DNA of 41,991 nt. Source: an uncultured Lachnospiraceae bacterium (lineage in GTDB: Bacteria; Bacillota; Clostridia; Lachnospirales; Lachnospiraceae). The stretch spans positions 1 to 41,991 of the forward strand of contig CAJOLA010000004.1 of assembly GCA_905235275.1 (NCBI GenBank), given 5' to 3'. This document shows positions 36,988-41,991 of this stretch, piece after piece. Made by a program: the position numbers and the translations under genes. How positions within the stretch are numbered: the stretch's first letter is position 1; the number at the start of each line of letters is the position of its first letter. The notes under the pieces are model-generated. The model had not been told where the DNA came from, searched no databases, and saw nothing but the letters and a program-made list of their open reading frames with translations.

Positions 36988-38514
36988 TTATTTATTGTTT
37001 TTAAGGTCTGAAACCGACTTTACGCAAACGGCGGTATGGCCGTTTGGAAGAATCAGTATGTCGCCTCTCTGTAATTTATTCGGGGAGGCGATATATTCTT
37101 TTGACGTATATAATGTAAACTTGCCGGTAGCCATAAGCTTATCCTTCATAATGTACGTATAGAGACTGTTGTTATTGACTCTTACATCACTCGTTTTTAA
37201 TCCGGCATACAAAAGAGCCACGGAAACAAGTGCACTGCAATCCGTCTCAACATCCTTTGTAACCTTACCCGGATCCCAGCCTACCTTGGCAGCCTCCATA
37301 TACAGGGTATTCCTCTGGCTCATGTCGTAGCCGATATGCTCGTTATATGCCGCTCTTGTCATTGCCACGGCAAGCCTCTCCTGCATATTCTTATCCTTCG
37401 GTCTTAAGACATATTGCCATGGTCTGTTATACCAGGTTCTGAAATATGCTTCGGACTTTGTCTGATCGCCCGCTTTACCGTACATGAATTCCTCACGCTC
37501 ATCCTTGGCGGCATGAGCAAGGATACATGTTCCCTGAACGGGACCGTCGGTTGCACCGTTTTTAATGTTGTACCAGGTTCCCTGCTGATTAACCTGAGAT
37601 ACACCGTTAAATGCCGTCAGCACCTCGCCCTTCTGCAAGAAGTACCATTTATCATTACATTTGTACCAATTATTTACGGATGTATTGCGTTTCAATACTC
37701 CGCTTATGCCTTTTATCTGAGCTTCATTATATAATTTATTGTCTATGATATTGTTTCCGGTAGCCATCCATCCCTTATTATCAAAATAATGATCTCCGTT
37801 ACCGTCTTTGTACCATTTGCTTATCTGAAGCCAACCGTTTACGGCAAAATAAGACCAATGATCCTTGGTTTCACCGTCAGCCTTTGTGAAATGCTTCCAT
37901 TCGGTCTGAAGCCAGCCGTTCTTTCCGAAATATGAGTAATGATCCGTGGACTCACCGTCAGCCTTCGTGAAATGTTTCCAGCCCGTCTGAAGCCATCCGT
38001 CATATCCGAAATATGAATAATGTTCTTTACTGCTTCCGTCGGGATTATTCTTCGTACCCATTTTCTGCCATCCGGTACGAAGCCATCCGTCAGCTCCGAA
38101 GTATGAATAATGCTCTTCTTTTTCTCCTTCGGCTTCTCCCATCTTATGCCATCCCGTATAAAGACGGCCTTTATCATCAAAGTATGAAAAATGAGCGACT
38201 GATTCACCATCCGCCTTGGTAAAAGCCTTCCAGCCCTTAACAAGCTCTCCGTCTTTTACAAAATGATAATAACCGTTGGACTTAACCCATTTATTGCCGG
38301 TTGTGGGAACGCTGACATTCTTATTTTCAATCTTTATCTTTTTGGTCTTTGCTTTCTTTTCCGTCGTCGCCGACGTATTCGAAGCGGTCCCGGTTGTCTT
38401 TTCGGCTGTTTCGGCATAGACGATATTTGCAAAAGGCACGTTAATGCTTGATACGGCTCCGGCAAACATGGCTGTTGCAATTACCCCTAAGCCTAAAATC
38501 TTTCCTTTCTTCAT
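36988..38514 (-). CDS. Secreted cell-wall-binding-repeat protein with C-terminal phage-lysin-like NlpC/P60-type cysteine hydrolase domain
   Basis: Signal peptide; repeated GW..(F/M)..HYSYFG.DGWLQT units; C-terminal TWYNRPWQYVLRPK...HIGYD...DCSALV...GHTAVCV. Confidence 0.85.
   Translation of the reverse strand: MKKGKILGLGVIATAMFAGAVSSINVPFANIVYAETAEKTTGTASNTSATTEKKAKTKKIKIENKNVSVPTTGNKWVKSNGYYHFVKDGELVKGWKAFTKADGESVAHFSYFDDKGRLYTGWHKMGEAEGEKEEHYSYFGADGWLRTGWQKMGTKNNPDGSSKEHYSYFGYDGWLQTGWKHFTKADGESTDHYSYFGKNGWLQTEWKHFTKADGETKDHWSYFAVNGWLQISKWYKDGNGDHYFDNKGWMATGNNIIDNKLYNEAQIKGISGVLKRNTSVNNWYKCNDKWYFLQKGEVLTAFNGVSQVNQQGTWYNIKNGATDGPVQGTCILAHAAKDEREEFMYGKAGDQTKSEAYFRTWYNRPWQYVLRPKDKNMQERLAVAMTRAAYNEHIGYDMSQRNTLYMEAAKVGWDPGKVTKDVETDCSALVSVALLYAGLKTSDVRVNNNSLYTYIMKDKLMATGKFTLYTSKEYIASPNKLQRGDILILPNGHTAVCVKSVSDLKNNK
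37759..38235 (-). repeat. Cell-wall-binding (aromatic/Gly) tandem repeats, about 6 units
   Basis: GWKAFTKADGESVAHFSYFDDKGRLYT / GWHKMGEAEGEKEEHYSYFGADGWLRT / GWQKMG..HYSYFGYDGWLQT / GWKHFTKADGESTDHYSYFGKNGWLQT / EWKHFTKADGETKDHWSYFAVNGWLQI / WYKDGNGDHYFDNKGWMAT. Confidence 0.88.
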
Positions 38515-38711: not shown

Positions 38712-40331
<1,620 letters not shown>

Positions 40332-40356
40332 TTATATAACCTCCCTAATAACAATA

Positions 40357-40641
40357 TTATTTAATAACAGCAAGAATGTCTGACTGGCTTACAATAATAA
40401 AATCATCGCCGTCAAGCTCCACGTCAGTACCTGCATATTTGGAATAAATTACCTTATCCCCTTTTTTAACCTGCATCTTAACTTCATTGCCGTCAACCGT
40501 GCCACCGGGTCCTACCGCAATAACTTCACCCTGTGAAGGCTTATCCTTTGCCTCTCCGGGAAGTACAATACCGGACTTGGTAGTTTCCTCTTCTTTTATG
40601 GCTTTTAAGACAACTTTGTCTCCAAGTGGTGCTAATGTCAT
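40357..40641 (-). CDS. groES: Co-chaperonin GroES (start MTLAPLGDKVVLKAI)
   Basis: PLGDKVVLKAIKEEETTKSGIVLPGEAKDKPSQGEVIAVGPG; upstream of groEL; SD GGAGG before Met. Confidence 0.97.
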   Translation of the reverse strand: MTLAPLGDKVVLKAIKEEETTKSGIVLPGEAKDKPSQGEVIAVGPGGTVDGNEVKMQVKKGDKVIYSKYAGTDVELDGDDFIIVSQSDILAVIK

Positions 40642-40664
40642 AATATTTCCTCCATTTCTTTTTG

Positions 40665-40691
40665 TTAGCACTCTTTTTTTATGAGTGCTAA
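40665..40691 (-). promoter_or_regulatory. CIRCE operator (HrcA binding site), perfect TTAGCACTC-N9-GAGTGCTAA
   Basis: Exact consensus inverted repeat with 9-nt spacer directly upstream of groES. Confidence 0.98.
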
Positions 40692-40702
40692 TGTTATTCA
40701 TT

Positions 40703-40731
40703 AAGTTATCATCATTACATTTAAATGTCAA
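40703..40731 (-). promoter_or_regulatory. groESL promoter: TTGACA-N17-TAACTT with TG extended -10
   Basis: -35 rc at 40726-40731, 17-nt spacer, -10 rc at 40703-40708; CIRCE immediately downstream. Confidence 0.75.
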
Positions 40732-41621
40732 CCGTTATTTTTATTATTTCCATTTTCTCTTGCGTATGCAAAAAGATATTGCTGGGCATAGCCGCCGTAC
40801 TCTCCGAACTTCTCCTTTGCAAGCTCACTTAAAACCGGCATGCTTTGTTTTTCAGAGTCAAAATAGAGCTCTTCCATTATGCGCTTCATCCATACATCTA
40901 TAGGAAAAGCCTCCCTTTTACCGAGACCGAAAAGCATGATACAGTTTGCAACCTTGGGACCTATCCCCTTTACCGTGCAAAGAAGCTCGCTGCATTTGGA
41001 AATGTCCGATTCTCTTAAGAGCTTTTCAAAGCCGGGTGTGCTTTTTTGCTTATTTATGGCATCACACAGATACCCTGCCCGAAATCCGGTCTTTAAATCC
41101 TTAAAATCATCCTCACAGGCGCTGCAAAACTCATCCGGAGTCGGAAATGCATACATCGTATCCGTAAGCATTCTGCCCCACTTTCGGGATATGGCAGCCA
41201 CAATTCCCTTTATTCGCGGAATACGGTTATTCTGAGAAATGATAAATGACATCATCGTCTCGAAGAATTCCTGATTAAGAATCCTGATACCGCGGTTTTG
41301 CTTAATGATGTCTTTTAGCTCCGGGCTTCTTTTTGCTATATATCTTTTTATCTTCCCGTAATCTCTGTCCAGGTCAAAATAGTTTTTCCAGATATCATTA
41401 AAGTCCTTCTTGGAGGTATCAAAGAAAATGAATTTATCATTTTCCTGTGCTATATGAAGATATTTGCCGTAAGCGCTTATCTCATATTCGGAATATTTAT
41501 CATCCGGATCCTCATCCAATCGGACAAAATGAAAGCACTGACCACATTCCATGGTCTGTGCCAGATTAAAGTCGGAAACATCCGAGAGTATAAGATTTTT
41601 TCCCTTTTTTTCAATTACCAT
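40728..41621 (-). CDS. ogg: 8-oxoguanine DNA glycosylase/AP lyase, OGG1-like
   Basis: HhH-GPD: LLCTVKGIGPKVANCIMLFGLGKREAFPIDVWMKRIM; MECGQCFHF N-terminal OGG motif. Confidence 0.93.
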   Translation of the reverse strand: MVIEKKGKNLILSDVSDFNLAQTMECGQCFHFVRLDEDPDDKYSEYEISAYGKYLHIAQENDKFIFFDTSKKDFNDIWKNYFDLDRDYGKIKRYIAKRSPELKDIIKQNRGIRILNQEFFETMMSFIISQNNRIPRIKGIVAAISRKWGRMLTDTMYAFPTPDEFCSACEDDFKDLKTGFRAGYLCDAINKQKSTPGFEKLLRESDISKCSELLCTVKGIGPKVANCIMLFGLGKREAFPIDVWMKRIMEELYFDSEKQSMPVLSELAKEKFGEYGGYAQQYLFAYARENGNNKNNG

Positions 41622-41623
41622 AA

Positions 41624-41991
41624 TCAGTAAGATATAACCTCATGTCCGTCTTCGGTAACAAGTACCTGTACCTCCCACTGAGCGGACGGTTTTCTGTCTT
41701 TTGTATAGACTGTCCAGTTATCATTCGAATCGGTAACAACCGCATGCGTTCCCATATTAATCATGGGCTCAATCGTAAACATCAGCCCCGGAACCATAAG
41801 CATACCGGTACCCTTTCGGATGACATAGCTTACGAAAGGATCCTCATGAAACTCAAGTCCCACACCGTGCCCGCCGATGGAGCGCACGACCTGATAGCCG
41901 TTTGCCGCCGTGGGGTTGACCGAAACGGTCAGCGTGGGCTTGGCGACGCTTTGGAATCCGGCCGGGACTGTGCCGAAATCGAAGAAGCCGC
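41624..41991 (-). CDS. map: Methionine aminopeptidase, C-terminal part; 5' end truncated or joined to unrelated sequence near 41900
   Basis: GYQVVRSIGGHGVGLEFHEDPFVSYV...MFTIEPMINMGTHAVVTDSNDNWTVYTKDRKPSAQWEVQVLVTEDGHEVISY; the reading frame stays open to the edge but upstream residues do not look like MAP. Confidence 0.8.
   Translation of the reverse strand, partial: GFFDFGTVPAGFQSVAKPTLTVSVNPTAANGYQVVRSIGGHGVGLEFHEDPFVSYVIRKGTGMLMVPGLMFTIEPMINMGTHAVVTDSNDNWTVYTKDRKPSAQWEVQVLVTEDGHEVISY

Follow-up and report, generated by a model that had tools for sequence, protein, structure and literature searches.

Very probable assembly chimera at a contig end, joining the 3' part of a methionine aminopeptidase gene to a stub of a surface-protein gene

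In this work, the right edge of a stretch of 41,991 bp was analyzed. This stretch, called the window, is an entire contig (C4), so that the end of the window is also the physical end of the contig. The bin that holds it is fragmented and of the metagenome type, with 1,260,200 bases in 93 contigs and 86.5% completeness. On the minus strand, the sequence is open from the contig end (41989) down to a stop at 41624, a frame of 121 residues with no stop before the edge. The translation of this frame in the original prediction is exact as quoted. No relevant repeat was found in the last 368 nt of the contig. The features at the edge are as follows.

40728 to 41621, minus strand: DNA glycosylase-like protein of 297 aa, adjoining map (from the ORF tables; the name comes from the translation read by eye).
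41624 to 41905, minus strand: 3' part of map, for a type I methionine aminopeptidase (MAP) of the kind with a SEC-C motif, covering some 94 C-terminal residues out of about 290 (94% amino acid identity to map of the closest congener; Pfam and NCBIfam matches).
41886 to 41905, minus strand: junction overlap of 20 nt, GCAAACGGCTATCAGGTCGT (NGYQV), assignable to either source by identity to both gene types.
41906 to 41991, minus strand: foreign stub, an in-frame piece of a gene for a SpaA-domain, LPXTG-type surface protein (GFFDFGTVPAGFQSVAKPTLTVSVNPT), assigned by nucleotide identity to the loci L046, L047, and L048.

The genes that follow map in the window, namely the DNA glycosylase-like gene, groES, and groEL (38712-41621, minus strand), have the same order as in the closest congener (G008), and the interior of the contig near 38712-41621 is therefore normal. 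Further inward (36988-38514, minus strand) lies a gene for a secreted protein of 508 aa, in which several cell-wall-binding-like repeat units (YFG..GWLQTGW) precede a cysteine peptidase-like domain, according to a reading of the translation. In G008, map is flanked by the same DNA glycosylase-like neighbor, then groEL, and on its other side by a gene of 549 aa that is DHH-type pyrophosphatase-like, also by reading of the translation.

Homologues of MAP matching the 121-aa frame were present in 55 of the 61 genomes searched, its own genome included. Of the other 60 genomes, 25 had as best match a MAP with 57-94% identity. All of these matches start at residues 23-30 of the fragment, and the first 22 residues are covered by none of the 25. 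The MAP homology thus starts abruptly at about 41905 on the minus strand, close to the boundary of "about ANGYQVV" that had been read from the letters, and everything below about 41885 is accounted for by map alone. It had also been proposed to look in relatives for the residues that precede GYQVVR in the window. They were found in none, and the six relatives aligned in detail have ordinary MAP residues at this place. The closest congener, for example, has an ordinary map of 290 residues with ECMDLGLEKVKPWGFLGDIADAVQTHAV before ANGYQVVR, which has little in common with GFFDFGTVPAGFQSVAKPTLTVSVNPTA in the window. The fragment matches the profiles Pfam Peptidase_M24 (E = 3e-12), NCBIfam PRK12318 (E = 5e-29), and TIGR00500 (E = 2e-26), although only positions 142-208 of 208 in PF00557 and 154-245 of 247 in TIGR00500 are covered, with 92.8 bits against a cut-off of 171.35. 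Residues 27-121 share 94% identity with the C-terminal third of MAP in the congener, and downstream the window has the same DNA glycosylase-like and groEL neighbors. The closest known enzymes are those of type I with a SEC-C motif (PRK12318/TIGR00500; PF00557 and PF02810). Unlike these enzymes, the window lacks the N-terminal two thirds, with the SEC-C motif and both aspartate ligands, and has about 28 foreign residues instead. Judged by this homology, the fragment is a truncated map that has been cut by the contig end.

Methionine aminopeptidases bind their metals through five ligands (D, D, H, E, and E). The fragment keeps the histidine (GGHGVG) and both glutamates (TIEP and QWEVQV), and both aspartates are missing; the region that holds them (NVDCSTILNGFFSDSS in G008) falls upstream of the junction. 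As both aspartate ligands of this set, which is taken from general knowledge, are missing, the predicted fragment could not be an active aminopeptidase. Only one map was detected in the bin, and congeners with a match also show a single map. Neither the N-terminal half of MAP nor the gene that precedes map in G008 was found elsewhere in the bin, so the contig breaks inside map.

The other side of the junction was approached with a pattern scan allowing synonymous-only variation of FGTVPAGFQSV in 84,980 species genomes. It returned three contigs (L046, L047, and L048), all from Clostridia or Oscillospiraceae MAGs, in which the match lies within a large open frame with a common C-terminal organization, e.g., YYDFGTVPAGFQSVAKPTLTVSVSPTAVNGYQVINR...LPKTGY. 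The two that were scanned with profiles, L046 and L047, carry multiple SpaA prealbumin-like domains (PF17802, E ≤ 6e-102 and down to 1e-117). The stub has 79-84% nucleotide identity to the three genes over 100-102 nt. Moreover, identity at tail nt 46-86, beyond the searched pattern, is 80-90%, so that the match is not merely a product of the search pattern. The residues DFGTVPAGFQSVAKPTLTVSVNPTAANGYQV give a gapless alignment with the C-terminal region of these LPXTG-anchored proteins; unlike them, the stub lacks everything upstream as well as the residues that lead on to LPKTGY, and it switches to MAP after NGYQV(V). With about 30 residues it has no profile match of its own, and the SpaA domains and LPKTGY are present in the relatives. 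Going by these alignments, the stub was traced, by type, to the C-terminal part of a surface protein with SpaA domains and an LPKTGY anchor, and the earlier guess of an extracellular beta-sandwich-like sequence holds.

No exact record for the tail was found, so the donor is known by type alone (79-84% nucleotide identity). The 35-aa tail had no match in Pfam or NCBIfam, and it was found in none of 390 other genomes of the class (391 searched, including its own). When phages and plasmids were searched by tblastn, with either the tail or the 166-aa donor C-terminus as query, the outcome was chance-level matches, matches to the MAP part, or none at all, and scans of viral contigs were empty. No further pieces of the surface protein were found in the bin. 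Near the surface-protein gene lie TrbL-like, NlpC/P60-like, and PrgI-like genes, as in conjugation modules, all with matches below the curated cut-offs. The three loci, one of which comes from roe deer abomasum, share a conserved pair formed by the large SpaA-domain LPKTGY protein and a TrbL-like protein whose C-terminal tail is long and of low complexity; in L046, the NlpC/P60- and PrgI-like genes are also near this pair. The pair looks like a part of a conjugative element.

The original prediction counted 58 G+C in the last 91 nt, which is correct (63.7%, the mean of the window being 44.7%). This value is reached by only 63 of the 41,901 windows of 91 nt, and 49 of them lie within the same terminal stretch. 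The stub itself has 65% G+C against a window mean of 45%, a composition explained by the 58-61% G+C of the three surface-protein loci. The G+C content stays high for about 55 nt into genuine MAP sequence (59% at tail nt 107-160), and the step in composition and the homology boundary are thus not exactly coincident. Furthermore, among 42 contig ends of the bin that were examined, the right end of C4 has the highest G+C content, which argues against a general defect of the ends in this assembly. The same 42 ends were compared with most of the G008 genome (1.51 Mb); many align to their last bases and others stop earlier, and since such early stops may reflect divergence or gene order, this control gives no base rate of chimeric ends. 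At several other ends of the bin, e.g., C2 left, C2 right, and C8 right, about 150-300 nt within an open frame have no alignment to G008; divergence is one possible reason, and a further misjoin another.

The similarity to surface proteins covers tail nt 5-106, and that to MAP begins at tail nt 87. Both homologies therefore overlap by 20 nt at 41886-41905 (GCAAACGGCTATCAGGTCGT), where the two unrelated proteins encode NGYQV in the same frame. This word has 75-85% identity with the surface-protein genes and 80-90% with map of the two closest congeners, and the best-scoring breakpoints lie in or beside it. Two unrelated homologies hence meet at a short common word in a contig that ends at 41991. 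Runs of metaSPAdes with k = 21, 33, 55, and 77, and contig ends extended with incorrect reads, have been reported (PMC7953547). An overlap of about 20 nt comes close to the minimum word size that common metagenome assemblers use (k = 21 for metaSPAdes in that study), although the assembler of this bin may differ. In chimeric contig ends of short-read metagenome assemblies, unrelated sequences are likewise joined at the contig end via a word of about one k-mer; the present case differs in that the common word lies in the same coding frame in the two genes, and otherwise nothing is notable.

We hypothesize, with a probability of about 0.94, that the terminal join is an assembly chimera formed at the contig end via the common 20-mer. 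The contig would be correct up to about 41905, and its proper continuation would be the N-terminal two thirds of map. Here the assembler would have followed a word of about 20 nt that is common by chance to map and to a G+C-rich foreign gene, run about 86 nt into the latter, and then stopped. The donor would be another organism, or an element absent from the bin, and the piece would encode part of the C-terminal region of an LPKTGY-anchored protein with SpaA domains, whose gene is carried together with conjugation genes. Because both genes have NGYQV at this point in a common frame, the misjoin would look like an in-frame fusion. The absence from the bin of the N-terminal half of MAP and of the gene upstream is expected if the contig breaks at map. 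An assembly chimera or contig-end artefact was also the first choice of the original prediction, and it is supported by the contig end itself, by the two homologies with their overlap of about 20 nt, and by the two missing halves, neither of which is in the bin. From the same observations we infer that the two sequences were joined by the assembler rather than in a cell.

A strain-specific illegitimate recombination in a cell, between the surface-protein gene of a conjugative element and the 3' part of map via microhomology of about 20 nt, is improbable. It would agree with the 20-nt stretch common to both sequences and with a join in frame, and the donor gene type could be mobile, as it adjoins TrbL-, NlpC/P60-, and PrgI-like genes. 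On the other hand, the join is not at the edge of an element but within a cargo gene, with some 50-odd codons left before the stop. The event would inactivate the only map found in the bin, in a group where congeners with a match have a single copy, and the part lost carries both aspartate metal ligands. Moreover, no further part of the surface protein or of its element is seen in the bin, and the join coincides with the contig end.

A natural in-frame fusion protein, with a new N-terminal domain on a catalytic fragment of MAP, is hardly credible. The open frame does extend to the contig end uninterrupted by a stop, and the reading frame is kept across the join since both genes encode NGYQV in the same frame, a continuity that is no independent evidence for a functional fusion. 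However, such a fusion is found in no relative, the real C-terminus of the surface protein continues to LPKTGY, and the MAP part begins after the residues matching both aspartate ligands, so no active aminopeptidase would be possible. The 121-aa frame is not an expressed fusion protein. A tail formed by diverged or frame-shifted normal MAP upstream sequence, without foreign DNA, has only its position in its favor and is refuted by tail nt 14-86, where six map genes show 20-31% identity, the level of unrelated sequence, and the surface-protein genes 75-90%.

The relevance of this join is thus one of quality control only. The terminal 86-106 nt or so of the contig should be trimmed, and no database should list the 121-aa frame as a new MAP architecture or as a fusion protein. 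The chimera would mean that the contig end holds an ordinary assembly error and no new fusion gene, and that a common coding word shared by chance, here NGYQV, can give a misjoin the look of an in-frame fusion.
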